DNA from: a virus
IMG/VR virus record: IMGVR_UViG_3300029448_000592
Coordinates: 1 to 20,048 of that record
Length of the DNA stretch: 20,048 nt
Strand: one strand, 5' to 3'
Below the pieces are notes generated by a model. That model did no database searches, had not been told where the DNA came from, and was given only the letters and a program-made list of their open reading frames with translations. Shown in pieces: positions 441-10,338 of the stretch. The translations under genes were made by a program, and so were the position numbers. Within the stretch, counting starts at the first letter, position 1; each line of letters starts with the position of its first letter.

Positions 441-1799
441 CTATAAAGCTATAGCCATTGCTACTGCAAAACCATTTGTTGCCAAATTACTTGTGTCTGT
501 TGCTTCTACTGTTGACCATGCACTTCCAGTATAAAATTTGAGTACATTAGAACTGCTATTAAAATACAAATCTCCAGCACTAACAGAACCACCACTAGGA
601 TCAGAAGAATGAGTGCCTTGATAAATATTAGAAAACTCTGTTTTAGATAAAGCTGACTGTTCTGCCCAATATTTAGCAGAATATAATCCAGTATTTCCTA
701 TTGTTGTTGATGTAGAAAAACTATCTCCACCACCTAACGCCCAGTTTTTAGCTGATCCAGCATTTAATGTAGAACCTGATCCTGCATATACCTTTGCTGA
801 GAACTCTGTGCCATCTACTGCATCAGCTTCAACTGCCCAAGACTTTGCTGAACCTGACCCTGCTGTGTCAGTTACACCAGTTCCACCAATCGCCCATGCT
901 TTAGATGAATATTGGCTTGATTCAACAGCTCCATCTACTTTAATAGCATAATTTTCTGCTTTAGTAGCACTAGTACCAGCGGCAGTTGCAGAAGCGGCTG
1001 CTTCTCCAGCTTTGGTAGTTGCAGTACCAGCATCTGTATCTGCTTCACCAGCTTTAGTTGTTGCAGTTGCAGCAGCTGTTGTAGCAGTTGCAGCATCTAC
1101 TAATAGTGACCACTTAGCAGCATCTGTGTTTGATGTTAATGGCTGTGACCCACTAGATGTATGAGCTGTAATAGCAATGAATATATTATTTGTGCTTGTG
1201 TCTTTTACAATATCTCTTTGAGCGTAAGTTGTACTAGCTGCCCAATTACCTTTAACTGATCCTAATTCTTGAGTTACAGCTAATTCACCAGAGCTGTCAA
1301 AAGCTAAAAGCTTACTAGCTCTATCTGTTGCACTAGTTGTGAATTGTGTTGACGTCATCGTATTGGTTTTAGAAATTTTTAAAGATCTATCAGATTCTTC
1401 CTGGAGAGCCTGGGCTATGAAGGTTAATCTATCTAATGCATTTTCATGAGACGTTGAGGCAAAGGTATCATTTTCAATATAATCTGTACCCTGGGTAAGA
1501 GTAAGATTTCTCCTTAATAAAATAGTTTCACCAGAAGCTGGTCTATAATCTGTTGTTGAATAATGGGCATCTGAAGATGTGCCAGTATTAAATTTAAATA
1601 AAACATTACCGCCAGAATCTGTTCCAGCATTAGTAACTATATAATGTGTATTTAATGTCTTTGTTGTTTCTGTACCAGTTGAAGATCTTACAATTACTTC
1701 TATATCAGCCTCTGCAAAAATCTTAAATCCATAGGCAAAACTGTGCTGGGTTCCATTGCCAGTATAGGAATTTGTGTTGGTGGTTGAACTAACAGTCAT
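441..1799 (-). CDS. Tail fibre protein with T7 gp17-like N-terminal anchoring domain
   Basis: A 452-residue fibre. Residues 1-150 match the T7 tail-fibre N-terminal family, which docks the fibre on the tail: an early YTGNGTQHSFAYGFKIF, then an 'ETILLRR' strand, 'QGTDYIENDTF' and an amphipathic 'LDRLTFIAQALQEESDRSL' helix. Residues about 185-233 (WAASTTYAQRDIV ... KWSLL) look like a small carbohydrate-binding-module-type fold. Residues 236-285 are Ala/Thr-rich with repeated TTKAGEA. Residues 290-380 carry four SAK-x-(W/Y)A repeats, typical of a trimeric fibre shaft. A 'GDLYFNSSSNVLKFYTGSAW' module at 409-428 precedes a short hydrophobic end. The start overlaps the upstream stop as TAATG with AAGGAG upstream. 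At 452 aa it is shorter than T7 gp17 (553) and lacks an obvious large receptor-binding tip, so downstream proteins may supply it. Confidence 0.9.
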   Translation of the reverse strand: MTVSSTTNTNSYTGNGTQHSFAYGFKIFAEADIEVIVRSSTGTETTKTLNTHYIVTNAGTDSGGNVLFKFNTGTSSDAHYSTTDYRPASGETILLRRNLTLTQGTDYIENDTFASTSHENALDRLTFIAQALQEESDRSLKISKTNTMTSTQFTTSATDRASKLLAFDSSGELAVTQELGSVKGNWAASTTYAQRDIVKDTSTNNIFIAITAHTSSGSQPLTSNTDAAKWSLLVDAATATTAAATATTKAGEADTDAGTATTKAGEAAASATAAGTSATKAENYAIKVDGAVESSQYSSKAWAIGGTGVTDTAGSGSAKSWAVEADAVDGTEFSAKVYAGSGSTLNAGSAKNWALGGGDSFSTSTTIGNTGLYSAKYWAEQSALSKTEFSNIYQGTHSSDPSGGSVSAGDLYFNSSSNVLKFYTGSAWSTVEATDTSNLATNGFAVAMAIAL

Positions 1800-4700
1800 T
1801 ATCTAGCTCCTTTAACATAAGGCTCATTTCGTTCTTTATAGGCTCTATAAAGATCTTCATTCTCAGGCATTGCAATTAAACGCTGGAATGCAGCTTCATA
1901 AAAATCATTCTCTACGGCTTTAATTAAATTTATCTTTTCTTTTCTTGATGCATCTACATATTCAAAAGTTTTAACAAACTGCTCCAGGTATTTCTGGAAA
2001 GGCAGCGGTTCTGTACCAGCTGCAACTTGTAATTTTATGGCATCTTTATTTGTTGGGTCTTTAGCAATAAAGTTTAGCTGTCCTTTTCTAGCATTCGATA
2101 ATTCAATGCCTTCAATAACGTCAACCTCATCTCTTAAAGGAAGACCAATTTTAATTAATTCTTTTTGCCAGTCAGGCATTTCTTCACCATAACTAATAGC
2201 AAATGGCGTTGTAAGGTTCCAATAAGCATGAACTGGGTTTACACTTGATGGAACTCCAGCTGTAAGCTTGTTCCCAATTGAATCATATAAATATTGATAA
2301 TCATCCATAGTTTTTTTGTACCAGGGATTATTTTTCATTTGATCTTTAAAAACTAAAACAGAGCTATCAAAGAATGTTTTAGCTGAGCTGTCTTCTTTAA
2401 CAGTTGCTACTAAATGATAAGGAACCTCGTCTAATGGTTTATCTGTAGTTTGTGAATCGTTATACATTTTTTGAACATCAGCTATAGTATAATAAGTAAC
2501 TGGCGTTGATGATTTATATCTTTGTGTATCTGTTGCTTTTTTCTCCACCCTTATTGCAGCACTAAATGGAACTGGTAAAACGCCAAACATATTATTCATT
2601 GGACTTCTTAGTATAATGCTTGGATCATCGTATTCCATTGCAGCAAATATTGATGACATACCTTGCAAAAATGGTATTTGTTTAAAATAATTTACTGTTG
2701 CAGCTGTGCAAGCGGTTACTAAATCTTCTCTATCAGTTTGCTTGACTACCCTTCTTCTTCTTTCTGCGCAATCAGCGCCAATACCAATCAAGGCACTTAC
2801 TGGCTCAAAACCAGCGTAATTAACATAAACTAACTCTCCATTAGGAATGCCGTTTCTGTCATATAATGGCAATTTATCACCGTTATTATCTACTGGAAAA
2901 CCTTCACCTCTAAAAACAAATGAATATGGTTGCCAATTTTTAGGCAGCATTGCTCTTATTTTTGGATCGCTAGGCATGGCTCCAGTAAGCCTACCTTCGT
3001 CAGACCATTGATAAACCTGGTACATTGTCATTGACCCAACAGCCATCCTAGACAATGCTTGTTGCTGAGCTTGCCCTCCATTTTTGCCACCAATATCAGC
3101 TCTTATCTTAGGAGAGAAAAACAATGACAATGGGTGACTTTCACCAACCATTCTAATGCTATTATTTGGGGCTTTAGCAAAAGGTATTAACAATTTACCT
3201 AAAAAATATTTTTGTACATTCTTAGTTAAGTTACCAGCAACTCCATCAAGGTTTTCAGTTAATAAATTTCTATTTCCAGCGTATTCAATTTCTGTTCTTA
3301 CAGCTTCTGGATCAAGTAATATCATCAAGCCATTATCAGCTGCTTCCTGATCTGTGGCTCCATTCATTTTTGAAATTCTAGCAGCTTTTATAGCTTCTTC
3401 ATAAGCAGCCCCACGCTGAACTATTATTCTCCAAAAATCATCAGATGATTGAAGAGCTGCTCCTGGAACTCTTATAGCTCTTCCTAAAAAATCTATAGCT
3501 TTGCCTAAAGTTCCTGACTGCCCTAAAAACTGACTATCTATAGCGTTAAAACCTTCAATCTTGTTTGTTCTACCAGCTGGTATTTCTGTTGTTGCTGTTT
3601 TGTAGGCAGTTAACCAGGCATCTTTAAAAGCTTGCCCCATTCCAATATTGCGAGCAAGAATGTCTGAAATAAACATACCATCAGGATTAATTTCCATCCC
3701 TAATGATTTTTTACCACCTCTTACAACAGTCATTGTTGTAGCTGCAACTAAGTCAGTTAATTGGTTGTAAACAATAAAAGTTGGAGTAGCAAAAAGGTTT
3801 TTTAATGCTGTCTTACTGTTCGATAATAATCCATTAATATAAATTTCTTGAAATACTTTAGGTAACTTTTCTTTCCAGCCCCTAGCAATTGCTTCAGACA
3901 TTCCAGCTTTACCGCCTTCTAATTCTCCTTTTTTAATAGCCTGGACTAATTTTATTGCTGTATCTTTACCGCCTGATTCATCTAACAATTCATTTTTTAT
4001 ATCACCTATATTTATAGGATTTCTTGCACCAACTGGAACTGTAAAAGCTTGCAATGCCCTTGCTATTTCAGTCTGAGCGCCTTTAGCCCTCATTTGCAAT
4101 CCACTATGAATAGCAACTAGGCGTCTATATCTTAATAAATTGTCATTACTGTCAGCACCAGCCAGGATCTCATCACCTAACTTAGATATTTTTTCAGCTG
4201 AGTTCTGTAATAACATTCTCAAAGCAGTCATTTGAGAAGCGTTAAGAGTTGTTCCAATTTTTGCTTTTAACATTGTTTTAGTGAAACCAGTTTCATCAGA
4301 TAATAATGCAACAGCCTCATCTACAGTTTGTGTATTACTTACAACACCTCTTTTAAACTCATCTGTTTCTTTACTAACAATTTCACTTACACCATTGATA
4401 ACGCCAAGAACATCTTCAGAAGAGTTCATTTTATCAAAGTTAAAATCTATACCTTTGTCTGTTTTGAAAAAAGCATTTGCAGATCCAGTAAGTAAATCTA
4501 ATGAATCACCTTCATTAGCTAACCCTCTTGGCTTTTCATTTACAGCTAACTTGGCATCATCCAAAATTTGCTGTGACGCCTCAAATTCCTGATCTGCCAT
4601 TTTTACCAGGTCTTCTTTAGGCGTTAACATCTCTTTACCGCTCATTGCCACATTACGGTTTTCTGTAAATCTTTGCAGTCCTTCTGGGCTTAATATCTCT

Positions 4701-4942
4701 TCAGCCATATTATTTTGGACTTGAGTATTCGTTGTGCCTTCTTTTAATAATCTTTCTTCATTAGGCAATGCAACACGCTTACCGCCAGTTACAGACGGTG
4801 ACATTTTGCTAGACTGTTTTAATATACTATTAAACCAACCAGCTAACTCAGTATATTCTGGACTATTTGGATTCTTGGACGCTGGAGTCAACACTCCCCC
4901 AGTCAAAGAAGCATTCATTGCTTGTTCGTTAGGTATTGCCAT
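1799..4942 (-). CDS. Giant internal virion / DNA-ejection protein (gp16-like)
   Basis: A 1047-residue protein in the position of T7 gene 16, directly before the tail fibre. It is mostly helical. Residues 367-384 (IYINGLLSNSKTALKNLF) match a motif I know from large ejection proteins of many podoviruses ('LLSxxRTxxxN'). It is followed by a hydrophobic stretch (about 385-408), 'RVPGAALQSSDDFWRII' at 491-507 and 'LLIPFAKAPNNSIR' at 584-597. T7 gp16 is ejected with gp14 and gp15 to form a DNA conduit across the cell envelope; a similar role is inferred here. I see no lysozyme or lytic transglycosylase domain, unlike the N-terminus of T7 gp16. The ribosome site before 4942 is modest (GGGA), immediately downstream of a hairpin with a U-tract. 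The end overlaps the fibre start (TAATG). Confidence 0.75.
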   Translation of the reverse strand: MAIPNEQAMNASLTGGVLTPASKNPNSPEYTELAGWFNSILKQSSKMSPSVTGGKRVALPNEERLLKEGTTNTQVQNNMAEEILSPEGLQRFTENRNVAMSGKEMLTPKEDLVKMADQEFEASQQILDDAKLAVNEKPRGLANEGDSLDLLTGSANAFFKTDKGIDFNFDKMNSSEDVLGVINGVSEIVSKETDEFKRGVVSNTQTVDEAVALLSDETGFTKTMLKAKIGTTLNASQMTALRMLLQNSAEKISKLGDEILAGADSNDNLLRYRRLVAIHSGLQMRAKGAQTEIARALQAFTVPVGARNPINIGDIKNELLDESGGKDTAIKLVQAIKKGELEGGKAGMSEAIARGWKEKLPKVFQEIYINGLLSNSKTALKNLFATPTFIVYNQLTDLVAATTMTVVRGGKKSLGMEINPDGMFISDILARNIGMGQAFKDAWLTAYKTATTEIPAGRTNKIEGFNAIDSQFLGQSGTLGKAIDFLGRAIRVPGAALQSSDDFWRIIVQRGAAYEEAIKAARISKMNGATDQEAADNGLMILLDPEAVRTEIEYAGNRNLLTENLDGVAGNLTKNVQKYFLGKLLIPFAKAPNNSIRMVGESHPLSLFFSPKIRADIGGKNGGQAQQQALSRMAVGSMTMYQVYQWSDEGRLTGAMPSDPKIRAMLPKNWQPYSFVFRGEGFPVDNNGDKLPLYDRNGIPNGELVYVNYAGFEPVSALIGIGADCAERRRRVVKQTDREDLVTACTAATVNYFKQIPFLQGMSSIFAAMEYDDPSIILRSPMNNMFGVLPVPFSAAIRVEKKATDTQRYKSSTPVTYYTIADVQKMYNDSQTTDKPLDEVPYHLVATVKEDSSAKTFFDSSVLVFKDQMKNNPWYKKTMDDYQYLYDSIGNKLTAGVPSSVNPVHAYWNLTTPFAISYGEEMPDWQKELIKIGLPLRDEVDVIEGIELSNARKGQLNFIAKDPTNKDAIKLQVAAGTEPLPFQKYLEQFVKTFEYVDASRKEKINLIKAVENDFYEAAFQRLIAMPENEDLYRAYKERNEPYVKGAR

Positions 4943-4953
4943 AAATTTCCCAT

Positions 4954-4980
4954 AAAAAAAGGCTGCCTAAAAGACAGCCT
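4954..4980 (-). terminator. Intrinsic-terminator-like hairpin inside the late operon
   Basis: Read on the minus strand, an 8-bp stem (AGGCTGTC / GGCAGCCT, with one G-U pair) closes a 5-base loop (TTTTA). It is followed by seven T residues. This is a textbook rho-independent terminator for minus-strand transcription. It sits between the 59-aa gene (ending at 5006) and the 1047-aa ejection gene (starting at 4942); the U-tract ends about 11 bases before that ATG. It may be a leaky terminator that lowers expression of the genes after it, or a processing or stability hairpin. Confidence 0.8.
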
Positions 4981-5005: not shown

Positions 5006-5185
5006 CTAGGACATTTGTATATTTTTATCTTTTTTTGGTTTGTTGTAAGAACCAGTAACATAAAGATCTTTAAAAGACTGCCCAGATTTTTCTGCCATTA
5101 TCTGTCTATTAAGATCCTGGACTATTGGGGCTTCCGCTCCCAGCTCCTGAGACATTTCGTCTCTCAATTGTTCCAGTTTCGTCAT
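5006..5185 (-). CDS. Small protein of unknown function overlapping the 1008-aa gene
   Basis: A 59-residue protein starting MTKLEQLRDEMSQELG, with a charged helical first half and a basic, lysine-rich tail (SYNKPKKDKN). I chose the ATG at 5185 because GGAGG lies 8 bases before it. The in-frame ATG at 5200, giving 64 residues, has only a poor GGTGG at 4-base spacing. It overlaps the 3' end of the 1008-aa gene by 77 bases in another frame. The overlapping end of that gene is low-complexity (GAGSGSPNSPGS), which suggests this small frame is the constrained one. It is followed by a terminator-like hairpin. Function is not recognised; a small virion or chaperone protein would fit its place among the internal-core genes. 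A +1 frameshift product of the upstream gene is a less likely alternative. Confidence 0.65.
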   Translation of the reverse strand: MTKLEQLRDEMSQELGAEAPIVQDLNRQIMAEKSGQSFKDLYVTGSYNKPKKDKNIQMS

Positions 5186-8135
5186 ATCCAATGCCTCCAT
5201 CTATCCACCCAGTATCTGGGTTAGATTTGTTAACATAAACTTTAGTATCATAATAAACAACGTCAGCGTATGTAACGCCATCTATTGATCTCATTTCGTT
5301 CATCGCTCTTAGATAAACCTTAACTTTCTCAGCCATTATACTAGCTAAATCAGCTGAACTAGCTGTACCATCAAATTCTGGAATATACTGGAAACGAATA
5401 CCAGTCAATTTTGCAGTCTCTTCAGTACCTCCTGATTGTACTACAGCTCTGTCTGATTGTCTAGCATCAGTTACAAAGGTAAACCCATCAATATCGTACT
5501 TTTTAAGTATTTCAGATATAGCAATTAATTCTTCTTTAGACTTTGCTGTTTTAAAGTAAACCTCACCACCTGGTCTAGCATTTGGTGTATCAGCATTAAC
5601 AACCTTAGATATAAAAACTGAATCCTGATTATATTTTTTACCAGCTTTGACAAGATCTGATATTAATGGAGCTGGGTCAAAATCTGTCTGTGTTGTTACC
5701 TCAAGATTTAATGACCTTTCATTACCGCCATCAAATCTACCAATAGTATTGTTTGCCTGGAACCCAATAACCTTTGGATCGTTTTTAACAGAAATAGTAA
5801 CCTCATCAGCTAACAATGATTGCTGCATATTGGTTGGCACTTCACCAGGTCTTTGCATAGCAACACCACCAGCAAATCTTTGAGGCGCCCCCTCAAGTGT
5901 TTTTAGTTCTTCAGCTGCCTTTATTTTATCAGCTTCACTACTATTAACAGAATTTATAATAGATCTTAGCTCTTTTGTTCTTTCAAAGTTTGGTGATCCT
6001 CCATAAACACTTTCAAAATCTAATGACCCACCTTCACCAGCTTTTGTTGTCCAACCATTTTTAGACCATTTTTCTTTTTCTAAAAACCATATAACAGCCT
6101 GGAGATCATCAGCGCCCAGATCACCAATTTCTGAATCGAAAGCCTTTATCTCTCCATTTTTATTTATAATTTTCACGGCATCTGCGAACACTTCTTGACC
6201 AAAACCAAACTCAGACCCTATTTTAGGATCATCTAAATTACTACCAGTCAAATGTTTACCAGCTACCGCTTTTTCTGCTGGCGGTGGTATTCTTGGTAAC
6301 CCAGCTGCATCTCTTAAATACCTAGCAGCCCATACATCAATTGTTGCATCATTACCAAACCCAATAAGGTTACCAGTAAAGTTAACAGTTTTAGGTGATC
6401 CACCTTTTTTAACTTGTCTAAACATATCTAATAAAGCCATAGTTGCTGCTGGACTATTTGTATTAAACAATGCCCCTGATGCCTTTGTAATTAACTTGAA
6501 AGGATTGTTAGGGTCTTTATGCATATTAGTTAAAGTTTCAGAATTTAGGTTTTCACCAGCATCAATTTTCTCTTGAAATAATTTTATCTCAGCATCAAAA
6601 TCACCTTTGGTAAACTGTCTTAAAACTTGAATAGCATTTTCATAATTTTGCTGGACATTTGTTTGAGCTGAAGTAGCTCCTATAATATCAGCAAATACAT
6701 CTGCCATGCCGCCAAATTCTTTTCTTAACCTAGTTCTCATGGTTCTATACCAGCTAGCCTGGTTAATAATATCTATTGCAGCCTGGTCACCATTTTTGGC
6801 TCTTTCAAGCACATCCCCAACATCGGTTACCATTCTGTTAACTAGGTTTGATTTATGCTTAGCATTAGCAGCTGCTTCTTCTGCACCTTTTAATTTTTTA
6901 CCAGGATGAATATGGAACCCATACATAGGTAAGTTCCATTTAAGTTCTATCTTACCTTTTTTATTAAGTTTAAATGATGGAGCTGTACCACCAGCATTAA
7001 TCTCTATAGGCAACCATCCATCATCTGGACGGTATTGATTCTTAACTCTTAATGCCTCATTTTTTACTTCACTAAATGAAACTTTAGGTTTTTTCATACC
7101 TGACAAAGTTTTTTTAATTGCCTGGTTTTCTGATGTTGATAGAGCTTTGAAAAAACTAGATAACACAGATCCTTCCGCATCATCAGAATATGTTACACCA
7201 GCTCCTCCAGCTGCTGCTGGGGTCACAGTTTTTAGCAATTGTTTCCAGGGAACTATTGTAGATGCTTTGAGAATACCGTTAATAAGAACTTCCGCACCAG
7301 CGCCAAACAAGGCTCCATCTACCATATTCTTTAGACGTTTTGTTGTTTCACCGTCTGTATCATGTTTTTCCACAACCGAAATTGCATAATTAGCCCAGTC
7401 AGATCTTTCTTTAGGATCTGCACCTTTCCACCAGGTTAACAGCATTTGAGTAGCTGTTGGATCATCTGGATTCATTGACATATAATCTGCAATGCCGCCC
7501 CACGCCAAGCCTCTAACAAATGGGTTAGCTGAACTCATCATTTTAACTAACCTGGCTGCTGGCACAGCTGTAATCCCAAATTGAGAAATACCTTTTACAA
7601 TCTCGCCATAAGTTTCAAAATTAAATGGCTCATTTAAATATTCATCAATAGGTTTTTTAATAAAACCAGGGATAAGTTTATTAACGCCATCTATATAAAA
7701 ATTCATAGCTTCAACATTCATTTCACTACCCATAAAAGGTCTGTCGCTACTTTTTATGCCTAAAAAATCTAAGACTGGTTTAATCGCATATTTATTTGCA
7801 ATATCAAATGGCACGCCAGCTAAATCAGCGGTTCCAATCATAGTTTCATATAAACCTTTGTCAGCGCCTTTTATCATGCCTTTTGTAGTATCTTCACCAA
7901 TTTTATTTAATGTTCCTTGTTGATCATTTAGTGATGTACCAACAGCACTAGCGCCTTCTTCAATTACCTCACCAAGAGTTGGTTTTTTATTTCCAGAAAC
8001 ATCAAAGTCATCTACCTGGGGCATAGACATAGAGCCATATTGTTTTTTTAATGATCCAATATAATAAATGTCATTAGCTTCTTCTTCACCAATAATATTG
8101 CCATTGTCGTAGCTTGTGTTTTCTAATTGTTCCAT
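5109..8135 (-). CDS. Giant internal virion protein with embedded DUF7178-like domain
   Basis: A 1008-residue multidomain protein between the gp15-like and gp16-like genes, presumed packaged and ejected with the DNA. The N-terminal third has Gly/Ala-rich hydrophobic stretches (about 95-115, 180-200 and 273-315) that could contact membrane. Residues about 480-695 show a recognisable pattern: 'IIGATSAQTNVQQNYENAI', then 'KTVNFTGNLIGFGNDATIDV-WAARYL', then 'DLQAVIWFLEKEKW'. From memory this resembles the phage domain DUF7178, whose '(S)PQT..NY..A' and 'N-L-G...TID.W..R' pattern recalls helix-hairpin-helix DNA glycosylases. Residues 775-970 form a second alpha/beta domain (NNTIGRFDGGNERSLNLEV, later KKYDIDGFTFVTD) that I do not recognise. 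AGGAG sits 8 bases before the ATG, which overlaps the upstream gene by 13 bases. The Ser/Gly/Pro-rich tail overlaps the next gene. Confidence 0.75.
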   Translation of the reverse strand: MEQLENTSYDNGNIIGEEEANDIYYIGSLKKQYGSMSMPQVDDFDVSGNKKPTLGEVIEEGASAVGTSLNDQQGTLNKIGEDTTKGMIKGADKGLYETMIGTADLAGVPFDIANKYAIKPVLDFLGIKSSDRPFMGSEMNVEAMNFYIDGVNKLIPGFIKKPIDEYLNEPFNFETYGEIVKGISQFGITAVPAARLVKMMSSANPFVRGLAWGGIADYMSMNPDDPTATQMLLTWWKGADPKERSDWANYAISVVEKHDTDGETTKRLKNMVDGALFGAGAEVLINGILKASTIVPWKQLLKTVTPAAAGGAGVTYSDDAEGSVLSSFFKALSTSENQAIKKTLSGMKKPKVSFSEVKNEALRVKNQYRPDDGWLPIEINAGGTAPSFKLNKKGKIELKWNLPMYGFHIHPGKKLKGAEEAAANAKHKSNLVNRMVTDVGDVLERAKNGDQAAIDIINQASWYRTMRTRLRKEFGGMADVFADIIGATSAQTNVQQNYENAIQVLRQFTKGDFDAEIKLFQEKIDAGENLNSETLTNMHKDPNNPFKLITKASGALFNTNSPAATMALLDMFRQVKKGGSPKTVNFTGNLIGFGNDATIDVWAARYLRDAAGLPRIPPPAEKAVAGKHLTGSNLDDPKIGSEFGFGQEVFADAVKIINKNGEIKAFDSEIGDLGADDLQAVIWFLEKEKWSKNGWTTKAGEGGSLDFESVYGGSPNFERTKELRSIINSVNSSEADKIKAAEELKTLEGAPQRFAGGVAMQRPGEVPTNMQQSLLADEVTISVKNDPKVIGFQANNTIGRFDGGNERSLNLEVTTQTDFDPAPLISDLVKAGKKYNQDSVFISKVVNADTPNARPGGEVYFKTAKSKEELIAISEILKKYDIDGFTFVTDARQSDRAVVQSGGTEETAKLTGIRFQYIPEFDGTASSADLASIMAEKVKVYLRAMNEMRSIDGVTYADVVYYDTKVYVNKSNPDTGWIDGGIGYDETGTIERRNVSGAGSGSPNSPGS

Positions 8136-9856
8136 GTGTCAGCTCCTACAACACCAATATACTTTTCAAATTTATTTAACCACGATTTATAGGCTGCATC
8201 AGTTGGCGTAGCTTTCTCAACAAGAAACATCATTATATTTTTATGAGTGTATTTACCATCCCATTGCACATTAGGGTTTTCTGGTCTAAAAGACGTAAAT
8301 TGTGCGCTATAAGTATTTTTAAATGATGTTACTTCTTGATCAAAAGTTGTTTTAAATAATGTGTTTATTTCTTCTTGATATGGAACCATAATATTTTTAC
8401 CAGCTTGAATAATTTCTGCATGGGTGGCTTTCGTTCCAGCTGGTGAATTTAAGTACTCTTCAAAAGCTTTAGCCGCTGACAATCGCATAGTATTAAATCT
8501 GGTAGATAAGGACGTATTATCATTGGTTAATTTATCAATATAAAAAGATTTGTTAATTATGGTTGACCTTACATAGGATGCACCGTCATTTCTTTCTTTT
8601 ACTAATCTGTTGAGAAAATTTTTGTAATCACCAAAATCTAACCCATTTATAGAATCTGTAATAGCTTTTCTTGTTAATTGGTTTTTTTCATCTAATTCAT
8701 CCAACATATTGTAAACAGCTGGATCTGTCTTTTTTGCGGTTTCCTTATCTTCATCTACCTCAAATAACTTTTCTACCGCTGTAATTTCACTTGGCTTAGT
8801 AAAATAGCCGTTTTTCTTTAATGTATTAAATTTTTCTAAAGCAGAAGATTTTTCAGCAGCATTGTCAAAATTAGTGTTAACAATTTCATTAAACATATTG
8901 TCATTTAATTTATTGTTTTCTTCATCTGCTGCTTTTTTAGCGTCAGCATTATCCTTCTTCATTTTGTTTTCTAGTTCTCTAACCTTATCAATAAAATCTA
9001 ATTTATCTTTAGGCTCTAACATTCCGAATACTTTAGCTAAAATAGGATCTACAGTTTTTAATTGTTCTGGAGTTCCAGTCCTTAAAGTTTCTGTAATTGA
9101 CATTGATGAATGAGTTTTAGATTTAATTAGATTAAGGCTTATACCAGTAACAATATTTTCTAATGATTTCTTTTGTTTTGTAATTAGCTCTTTGGCATTG
9201 AATGTACCTTTAGCAGCAAATTCTGAAAACTTACCTCCAGGCATCCCTTTATAATTACTAAAATCTTGTGGTTTGCTTTTGTCATAAAAAGATACAGAAT
9301 GATTACCATTTAATGCATTTAACCTGGTATTTATATCTAATGAAGTATTAGTTGCAATATTATCATTGTCAGAAACAATTTTACTTTCATTAATTTTATT
9401 TAACTCAATGATATAACTGTTATTGGCTTTCTTCCAGTTAAGTATACCGCTAGAAACTAATTGTGAAGCTTTTGTGCTAAAACCAGATTTAGCTAGCCTA
9501 CTGCTTAAATATGGCTGACCTGATTCATTTAAAATTGTTCCTGATGAATATCTGCTATAGGCTTTCATCATTTCTTTTTTAACTAATTTTTCTGCCTCTA
9601 TTGGGTTTCTATGATTTTTATACTTTTCTTTAATGGTTTCTATCTCAGCTGTAAAAAGAGGTAATGTTTCATTAACATCTGACGCCGCTTGTATCTTATA
9701 TTTCTCTTCACCAATTTTAAAGACAGTATCCCCAATATCACTCATTGCTTTACCCATAGCTCCCCAGGCATTAGGGTTGGCTTGGGCTGTTAAAAAAGTA
9801 CCACCACCAGCAGTTTTAGTCCTGGATAGTCTTTCTGAATATGTAGGAACTTTCAT
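8123..9856 (-). CDS. Internal virion protein, gp15-like by position
   Basis: A 577-residue, strongly helical and charged protein with no signal peptide or membrane segment. It begins MKVPTYSERLSRTKTAGGG and soon shows long heptad-like helices (AWGAMGKAMSDIGDTVFKIGEEKYK near 30-55; a Lys/Glu/Asp/Asn-rich coiled region near 270-330, ELENKMKKDNADAKKAADEE). It stands where T7 encodes the core protein gp15 (747 aa), after the gp14-like gene and before the giant proteins. In T7 gp15 builds the tubular core and the ejected conduit with gp16. Sequence likeness to T7 gp15 is not evident by eye, so the call rests on order, size and helical content. GAGG lies 7 bases before the ATG at 9856; the 3' end overlaps the next gene by 13 bases. 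Confidence 0.65.
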   Translation of the reverse strand: MKVPTYSERLSRTKTAGGGTFLTAQANPNAWGAMGKAMSDIGDTVFKIGEEKYKIQAASDVNETLPLFTAEIETIKEKYKNHRNPIEAEKLVKKEMMKAYSRYSSGTILNESGQPYLSSRLAKSGFSTKASQLVSSGILNWKKANNSYIIELNKINESKIVSDNDNIATNTSLDINTRLNALNGNHSVSFYDKSKPQDFSNYKGMPGGKFSEFAAKGTFNAKELITKQKKSLENIVTGISLNLIKSKTHSSMSITETLRTGTPEQLKTVDPILAKVFGMLEPKDKLDFIDKVRELENKMKKDNADAKKAADEENNKLNDNMFNEIVNTNFDNAAEKSSALEKFNTLKKNGYFTKPSEITAVEKLFEVDEDKETAKKTDPAVYNMLDELDEKNQLTRKAITDSINGLDFGDYKNFLNRLVKERNDGASYVRSTIINKSFYIDKLTNDNTSLSTRFNTMRLSAAKAFEEYLNSPAGTKATHAEIIQAGKNIMVPYQEEINTLFKTTFDQEVTSFKNTYSAQFTSFRPENPNVQWDGKYTHKNIMMFLVEKATPTDAAYKSWLNKFEKYIGVVGADTWNN

Positions 9857-9867
9857 TTAATATCCTC

Positions 9868-10338
9868 TTATATGCTTGCCATTGAACCAGCAAATTTACC
9901 AATTGCTTGCAGTCTCATTGCTTTTGCCTGGGCTTTAGCCTCATACCTAGCTAATATTCCTTTAAGCCTCATATTTTCAGCCTGATCTCTTAAATCGCCA
10001 GCTTCTGCTTTAGCGTTATATTCTAAATTATTTATATCAGCGTCCATTTCTTCTGCTGACTTCATGGCTATTTCTAAAGCAGTACCAGTTCCAGTCAATA
10101 TGTTAGCTTTGCTGTATTGCACTTGCTGTTCACCAGCTAAACCTTGATACTGATTTCTAAACTTAACAATGTCTTGCTCAGCTCTAAATACTCTAAGTTC
10201 AGCTTTTTGCTCAGCTACCTTTGCATTTCTATTGGCTAATAATTGATTATAAGCACCAGCTTTACTAATAGCGCTAGCACCAGCCATAGATCCCATAAAA
10301 GATATACCAGCTCCTATTGCCATCATTGTTACACTCAT
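9868..10338 (-). CDS. Internal virion protein B, gp14-like
   Basis: A 156-residue protein with a hydrophobic N-terminal segment (residues about 4-27, MMAIGAGISFMGSMAGASAI) followed by one long Ala/Glu/Gln-rich coiled-coil region to the C-terminus (NAKVAEQKAELRVFRAEQ and onward). This layout is characteristic of T7 gp14, which is ejected first and inserts in the outer membrane; T7 gp14 is 196 aa. The ATG follows the stop of the gp13-like gene with no gap (TAGATG), so the two are probably translationally coupled. Order between the gp13-like and gp15-like genes supports the call. No enzymatic motif is visible. Confidence 0.8.
   Translation of the reverse strand: MSVTMMAIGAGISFMGSMAGASAISKAGAYNQLLANRNAKVAEQKAELRVFRAEQDIVKFRNQYQGLAGEQQVQYSKANILTGTGTALEIAMKSAEEMDADINNLEYNAKAEAGDLRDQAENMRLKGILARYEAKAQAKAMRLQAIGKFAGSMASI

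Follow-up and report, generated by a model that had tools for sequence, protein, structure and literature searches.

A candidate ejection protein of a T7-type short-tailed phage with a predicted DNA-glycosylase-like domain of the DUF7178 superfamily

Background

Among described phage proteins, the closest to the element considered here, a 1008-amino-acid (aa) open reading frame (ORF) in the 20,048-base virus record IMGVR_UViG_3300029448_000592 (hereafter the window, meaning the whole stretch of DNA analysed), are T7-type gp16 and gp34 of Roseobacter phage CRP-804, the latter annotated as internal virion protein D, a label that is itself given by similarity. The gene position is alike in these systems, and the N-terminal segment of the 1008-aa protein and the gp16-like gene downstream of it both match gp34; CRP-804 gp34 has no DUF7178 match, whereas the window encodes its gp16 equivalent separately, with a region comprising a DUF7178 domain (domain A) and a second domain (domain B) upstream of it. 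Polyvalent proteins offer another comparison, in that they too are large phage proteins with enzymatic domains and are presumed to be injected (PMC5512222); that survey (Iyer et al. 2017) argues, as PMC7824862 restates, that nucleotide signals are a frequent target of such injected proteins. On the side of the enzymes, Ogg2 recognises 8-oxoguanine by its C-terminal lysine, whose carboxyl group is the sensor, and truncated Ogg2 keeps its apurinic/apyrimidinic (AP)-lyase activity and loses 8-oxoguanine removal (PMC3397491), while K140 and D172 of Pae-AGOG are equivalent to K249 and D268 of OGG1 (PMC9638937).

Here we argue, with confidence somewhat better than even, that the 1008-aa protein belongs to the internal virion (ejection) proteins of a T7-type short-tailed phage and has a built-in DNA-glycosylase-like enzyme domain. 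What is new is that such an enzyme-like domain lies inside a candidate ejection protein. The open-access literature yielded nothing on HhH-GPD domains with internal virion proteins nor on glycosylases in polyvalent proteins, the word glycosylase is absent from the main text of the polyvalent-protein survey (PMC5512222), and the Pfam LPD models gave no match to domain A among the families listed.

Results and discussion

Domain A and the DUF7178 superfamily

Comparison of the whole 1008-aa protein with Pfam DUF7178 (PF23802, curated cut-off 27 bits, with phrog_3842 as its counterpart) yielded a match at residues 426-607 (E = 1.3e-4, 22.4 bits), and the excised domain A matched the same model with E = 9e-6 and 26.2 bits, just under the cut-off, so that we call the protein a divergent DUF7178 homologue and not a formal Pfam member. 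The model was also matched by 26 of 27 close relatives and by 116 of 117 diverse ones (best E = 3.9e-16), and phrog_3842 matched the relatives in the same manner. With a distant relative as the query, small phage proteins were reached that are strong DUF7178 members, namely MK4 gp76, DroogsArmy gp83 and Kumao gp115. Stand-alone DUF7178 proteins, which are about 190-200 aa long and score 190-246 bits against DUF7178, include Mycobacterium phage MK4 gp76, Synechococcus phage S-CRES3 gp63, roseophage SIO1 gp9 and Prochlorococcus phage P-SSP10 PROG_00035. Profile-profile comparison (hhalign) of the stand-alone proteins with the embedded domain A family gave E = 2e-17, and both share the WY, SP/TSA, PK..F, D-x-[WH] and QA..W motifs. 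At the DUF7178 loci examined the protein stands alone and outside the structural cluster, whereas here the domain is embedded, with loop insertions, in a large protein of the virion cluster. On this profile evidence domain A belongs to the DUF7178 superfamily as a divergent member. A first-pass annotation, made from the letters of the window without database searches, had read a DUF7178-like core in this protein, and the Pfam matches in the protein and its relatives together with the hhalign result bear it out; the limits given for that core (residues 480-695) were too short, the domain spanning about 398-722.

A search with MK4 gp76 recovered 159 phage records, including Gordonia, Streptomyces and Rhodococcus phages, roseophage SIO1 and cyanopodoviruses. 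Two of the matched proteins are annotated as 'N-glycosylase/DNA lyase', and the record annotations call MK4 gp76 and DroogsArmy gp83 'glycosylase' and Kumao gp115 'N-glycosylase' (217-246 bits against DUF7178). In these records the stand-alone genes lie mostly within a few kilobases (kb) of the genome end (1.1 kb in CRP-1, 0.8 kb in P12053L, 1.4 kb in A-4L and about 1.7 kb from the right end in MK4), and in P-SSP10 a few genes separate it from the RNA polymerase gene downstream. Genome ends and the region upstream of the RNA polymerase gene are early-gene territory in such phages, and the activity is therefore probably needed at the start of infection. Two DUF7178 proteins are probably misannotated, one as 'glycosyltransferase' (L340:847-1449, Rhodococcus phage Jflix2 gp104) and one as 'portal protein' (L346:750-1346, Tunturi_3 ORF111).

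Predicted fold and active site of domain A

For residues 398-722, AlphaFold2 with an alignment of 117 sequences, restricted to domain A, gave a model with a mean pLDDT of 93.1 and a pTM of 0.90. The first AlphaFold2 model (residues 340-1008, 27 sequences) had been weak around the hairpin, and with it Foldseek and VIA picked up domain B only; the 117-sequence alignment overcame this. When the Foldseek candidates for domain A were realigned with VIA-align (503 aligned chains), nine chains exceeded Z = 4, all of them from the HhH-GPD superfamily or its queuosine-hydrolase offshoot, and the next chain, an unrelated one, had Z = 3.0. The best matches were the Ogg2 proteins of M. jannaschii (3KNT, Z = 10.0, 184 of 207 residues) and T. 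maritima (3N0U, Z = 9.5), followed by MagIII (7.2), human OGG1 (7.1), two entries of Pyrobaculum AGOG (6.9), the DUF2419 queuosine enzyme (7u5a, 6.6), EndoIII (6.5) and Tga-AGOG (4.2). The occupation of the top of 503 chains by a single superfamily is the strongest evidence for the predicted fold and supports the view that domain A has the all-alpha, two-lobed fold of the HhH-GPD DNA-glycosylase type; structure comparison of the core, a check that the first-pass annotation had proposed, matched glycosylase folds and not only a helical core similar to gp16.

Examination of the model revealed a helix at residues 558-568, a hairpin, a helix at 581-591 that opens with Pro581-Lys582, a loop to Asp600 and a further helix from 601, placing Lys582 and Asp600 where AGOG and OGG1 have their catalytic lysine and aspartate. 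Both residues are kept in all 117 diverse relatives, down to 26-30% identity, and the stand-alone DUF7178 proteins keep both as well. The motif was recovered in 214 unique cores, out of 220 cores in all, and 212 of those 214 have the two residues 18 positions apart, like K120 and D138 in the E. coli Nth sequence. A catalytic lysine is the mark of bifunctional DNA glycosylases. The glycosylase flavour noticed in the first reading of the sequence is in this way upheld at the level of predicted fold and residues, by the AlphaFold2 model, the VIA-align matches and the invariant lysine and aspartate.

Sequence profiles were compared using 20 archaeal Ogg2 sequences for the Ogg2 profile, with 60 shuffled decoys and reversed profiles as controls. 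The stand-alone DUF7178 family matched Ogg2 with E = 4.4e-4 and the aspartate aligned, and matched Nth/MutY with E = 0.0073, none of the 60 decoys being as good in either comparison and the reversed profiles giving no match. A direct link from the embedded domain to Nth/MutY, for which there was no significant profile match, was set aside, and the link is made via the stand-alone family and Ogg2. The connection to glycosylases is fold-led, with moderate sequence support. Ogg2 and domain A have in common, besides the best structural match, the corresponding places of lysine and aspartate and a conserved helix with a tryptophan near the C-terminal end. Ogg2 ends in its sensing lysine, whereas domain A is internal, with about 286 residues after it; lacking an Ogg2-type C-terminal lysine, it is unlikely to be specific for 8-oxoguanine, and the stand-alone DUF7178 proteins have no conserved terminal lysine either. 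With Endonuclease III/MutY (PF00730) domain A shares the K-D spacing, the D-x-[HW]-x-x-R motif (Nth) and the overall fold, and differs from them in lacking the iron-sulphur cluster cysteines, the LPGVG hairpin and a significant profile match.

The chemistry that we propose is modelled on endonuclease III, OGG and AGOG. In the infected cell the DUF7178 domain would use its helix-hairpin-helix to bind DNA, and would extrude and excise a single type of modified or damaged base, with Lys582 attacking C1' to form a Schiff base, Asp600 assisting, and an optional nick by beta-elimination. Ejection would deliver this activity at time zero, the same timing as that of the stand-alone early genes. Its most likely role would be to rid the incoming phage DNA of a lesion or of a base modification imposed by a defence system, and an alternative one would be an attack on modified host DNA. 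If domain A is an active glycosylase, a base-excision enzyme is delivered with the DNA by the phages of hundreds of IMG/VR contigs, and injected effectors, known from T4 and N4, would gain a new class; this would also provide a function for DUF7178, a family of mycobacteriophages, streptomyces phages, roseophages and cyanophages with no stated function, and it would become of interest which base, damaged or modified, counts during the opening minutes of an infection.

A number of results weigh against such a reading of domain A. Foldseek alone, run with the domain A model against the PDB, gave nothing with E below 0.001, and the glycosylases surfaced on realignment only and not in the Foldseek E-values. 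Embedded domain A compared with Ogg2 gave E = 0.008 with 1 of 60 decoys as good, its comparison with Nth/MutY gave nothing significant (E = 0.16-0.18), and the Pfam HhH-GPD model (PF00730) was not reported for domain A. The invariance of Asp600 is partly selected for, since its motif was part of several search patterns; Lys582 was in none of them. The hairpin of domain A does not have the usual LPGVG sequence, the HhH fold is also present in DUF2419, which acts on queuosine nucleosides and not on DNA, and the open-access literature search found no paper naming DUF7178 and no activity known for any DUF7178 protein.

The hairpin and DUF2419 bear on another possible target, in which an HhH-GPD fold would act on a free nucleotide, a nucleoside or an RNA base, for example as an N-glycosidase directed at a nucleotide signal of the host or at a modified base in tRNA. 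The absent LPGVG hairpin is the canonical one for binding the DNA backbone, the DUF2419 enzyme among the nine structural matches hydrolyses queuosine nucleotides, and injected polyvalent proteins are, according to PMC5512222, often aimed at nucleotide signals. Given that the closest folds are those of the DNA-acting Ogg2 enzymes and that the catalytic lysine of bifunctional DNA glycosylases is invariant, we regard a target other than DNA as rather unlikely. A relic of the HhH-GPD fold that has lost catalysis and persists in the internal core for DNA binding or for structural reasons would agree with the place of domain A within a structural gene cluster and with the fact that its conserved enzyme-like features are all predictions; the invariance of K582 and D600 among such distant relatives, their retention in the stand-alone forms and the many phages that hold the domain in unrelated protein contexts make such a relic quite improbable in our view.

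Evidence for ejection from gene context and the N-terminus

The glycosylase-like domain would reach the host cell if, as we favour, the 1008-aa protein is carried in the phage head. Among the 96 unique domain A cores from proteins shorter than 1300 aa, a set in which many contigs end nearby, a gp16-like gene lies downstream in 65 and core or tail genes flank the protein on both sides in 62. The N-terminus matched CRP-804 internal virion protein D in a tblastn search (28% identity, E = 2e-3), and profile comparison of its residues 150-289 (approximately) with residues ~187-314 of that protein gave E = 5.8e-6. Within the CRP-804 protein, residues 184-329 match the N-terminus of the 1008-aa protein and residues 704-907 match the gp16-like gene, and in one relative (L138) domain A, domain B and a gp16-like region are found in a single protein of 2558 aa. 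The simplest reading that we infer from these sequences is that of a gp16-type ejection protein which was split and may have gained domains A and B. Packaging in the head followed by injection is plausible in view of the synteny, the CRP-804 match and the L138 fusion, and the protein would take its place in the internal core beside the products of the gp14-, gp15- and gp16-like genes and enter the host with the genome, as its gene order, the fusion and the N-terminal homology would have it. A marine short-tailed phage thus probably injects the 1008-aa protein into its host.

A rival of the ejection reading is a non-packaged or scaffold-like late protein, whose enzyme would work late in infection on DNA that has been replicated. 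In favour of such a late protein, the 1008-aa ORF is set apart from the gp16-like gene by a terminator-like hairpin and a small gene. The homology of the N-terminus to an annotated internal virion protein, the presence of A, B and gp16-like regions in one protein, and the strict gp15/gp16 neighbourhood speak the other way, and a late, non-packaged protein seems to us unlikely.

Domain B

In the first AlphaFold2 model domain B is a ferredoxin-like alpha/beta domain, and G799, E806, E812, Q837, E858, G912 and R914 are invariant or almost so in it. The alpha/beta domain that had been noticed at residues 775-970 and could not be placed is indeed a separate conserved domain, with wider limits and this ferredoxin-like arrangement. 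Domain B gave no significant match among Pfam, PHROG and PDB sequences. Its best structural matches were domains of RND pumps (Z = 9.8), to which it is closer than to the phage S-adenosylmethionine (SAM) lyase Svi3-3 (Z = 7.0-7.1, about 118 of 125 residues), and a comparison with viral models gave a phage 'S-adenosyl-L-methionine hydrolase' as a weak match; the RND-pump match probably reflects the common ferredoxin-like arrangement. We consider domain B to be probably a second effector or regulatory module.

With the SAM lyases (T3 0.3 and Svi3-3) domain B has the ferredoxin-like fold in common, and in its G-x-[FY] ... E ... Q-[DE] pattern G799, the aromatic residue 801, E806/E812 and Q837 recall the conserved Gly56, Tyr58, Glu69 and Gln104 of SAM lyases, a likeness of residue pattern. 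One relative matches Pfam S-AdoMet_lyase weakly (E = 0.046). An assignment of domain B as a SAM lyase, attractive in fold and residue pattern, was not adopted, the profile comparison having given no support (hhalign E = 0.31, with 23 of 100 decoys as good), and domain B is left unassigned. An injected polypeptide carrying two counter-defence enzymes, with base excision on DNA by the HhH-GPD domain at time zero and a SAM-lyase-like domain B that would destroy SAM and so disarm SAM-dependent restriction-modification before phage gene expression, is a long shot. Domain B was likewise not taken to be an LPD or DUF3293 domain, there being no such Pfam match in 27 relatives.

Relatives and domain architecture

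A scan with the whole protein identified 48 IMG/VR loci with relatives, and scans with the domain alignments gave 463 to 522 IMG/VR stretches encoding relatives, as counted in single scans, and 8 loci in genome assemblies. The alignment has a variable N-terminal third and two strongly conserved blocks, domains A and B, and over residues 355-765 identity is 40-72% across 26 relatives, so that the conservation of the 1008-aa protein is far beyond chance. The predicted fold and the conservation of both catalytic residues suggest that many uncultured phages deliver a glycosylase-like enzyme along with their DNA. Against 50,697 phage records the tblastn search of the whole protein gave a partial match alone, that of the N-terminal segment to CRP-804, and the searches with the domains gave one chance-level match for domain A and none for domain B; with no match to the full architecture, there is no close cultured representative within that collection.

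Domain A is followed by domain B in 84 of the 96 unique cores from proteins below 1300 aa. It recurs, as enzymatic domains do in polyvalent proteins, in phage proteins of 1300 to more than 3000 aa, where it is often close to the C-terminus and is accompanied by domain B in 69 of 126 unique cores and found without it in the others. This occurrence with or without domain B across long phage proteins makes domain A a mobile module. Each of 14 longer contigs with the fused form had a single DUF7178 match, and a second, stand-alone gene was found in none of them.

Proteins of 2500-3100 aa with domains A and B were observed at L137:6153-15542, L136:5451-14210 and L138:5433-13106 (phage proteins in Sutterella, Opitutae and Euryarchaeota metagenome-assembled genomes), those of L137 and L138 having no Pfam matches at E 0.01. 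A phage protein of 2466 aa at L308:1644-9044 has DUF3293 (residues 1908-1968, E = 1.6e-6) and, near the C-terminus, a DUF7178 domain that passes the Pfam cut-off with 40.8 bits. Matches to HAMP_N3, DUF2057 and P110-adhesin were weak, occurred in one or a few sequences and were treated as due to chance, and searches of PDB sequences gave TPR-like chance matches only.

Gene neighbourhood in the window

The 1008-aa ORF that the first-pass annotation had placed at 5109-8135, with no strand stated, is present on the minus strand, position 5109 being the end of its stop codon, and it contains the peptides that had been quoted from it; the plus strand of the locus has many stops. The genes of the window run leftwards in a T7-type order, namely terminase, portal, scaffold-like, capsid, tail tubes, gp13/gp14-like, gp15-like, the 1008-aa ORF, gp16-like and fibre (Table 1). 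The position between gp15- and gp16-like genes, also claimed in the first reading, agrees with the PHROG matches and with the neighbourhood counts in the relatives. The gp15-like gene overlaps the start of the 1008-aa ORF by 13 bases.

Table 1. Features of the candidate ejection protein and of its neighbours, in positions of the window
Feature	Position	Strand	Basis or remark
Candidate ejected internal virion protein, 1008-aa ORF	5112-8135	minus	ATG at 8135, stop codon 5109-5111
N-terminal helical region, residues 1-354, variable	7074-8135	minus	residues ~150-289 match CRP-804 internal virion protein D
Domain A, residues 398-722, DUF7178 superfamily, predicted HhH-GPD (Ogg2-like) fold	5970-6944	minus	profile and model
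Helix-hairpin-helix and next helix, residues 558-610 (ends ...GGSPKTVNFTGNLIGFGNDATIDVWAARYLRDA)	6306-6464	minus	model and conservation
Lys582 codon, counterpart of the Schiff-base Lys in bifunctional HhH-GPD glycosylases	6390-6392	minus	117/117 relatives
Asp600 codon, counterpart of the catalytic Asp	6336-6338	minus	117/117 relatives; aligned with Ogg2 and Nth Asp
Domain B, residues 766-985, alpha/beta ferredoxin-like	5181-5840	minus	alignment and model
gp15-like gene, directly upstream of the 1008-aa ORF	8123-9856	minus	assigned by position and conservation, no PHROG name
gp14-like internal virion protein (gp13/gp14-like)	9868-10338	minus	phrog_418, E 1.2e-10
gp16-like internal virion protein, next gene downstream	1799-4942	minus	phrog_6651, E 2.1e-15
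Small conserved ORF of ~59 aa (MTKLEQLRDEMSQELG...), overlaps 3' end of the 1008-aa ORF	5006-5185	minus	related ORFs found at this place in relatives
Terminator-like hairpin, 9 pairs and T tract, shortly before the start of the gp16-like gene	4960-4980	minus	possible transcription boundary
Fibre-like protein	441-1799	minus	T7-type fibre N-terminal family matches over ~130-230 residues

The small ORF at the 3' end of the 1008-aa ORF has 110 related short ORFs in related loci (E up to 1, the best being 2e-15), and those of its kin that were listed adjoin the end of the domain B gene. The terminator-like hairpin suggests a transcription boundary within the cluster of internal virion protein genes. 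The fibre-like protein showed a weak match to the carbohydrate-binding module CBM_5_12 at residues 185-230 (E = 0.014).

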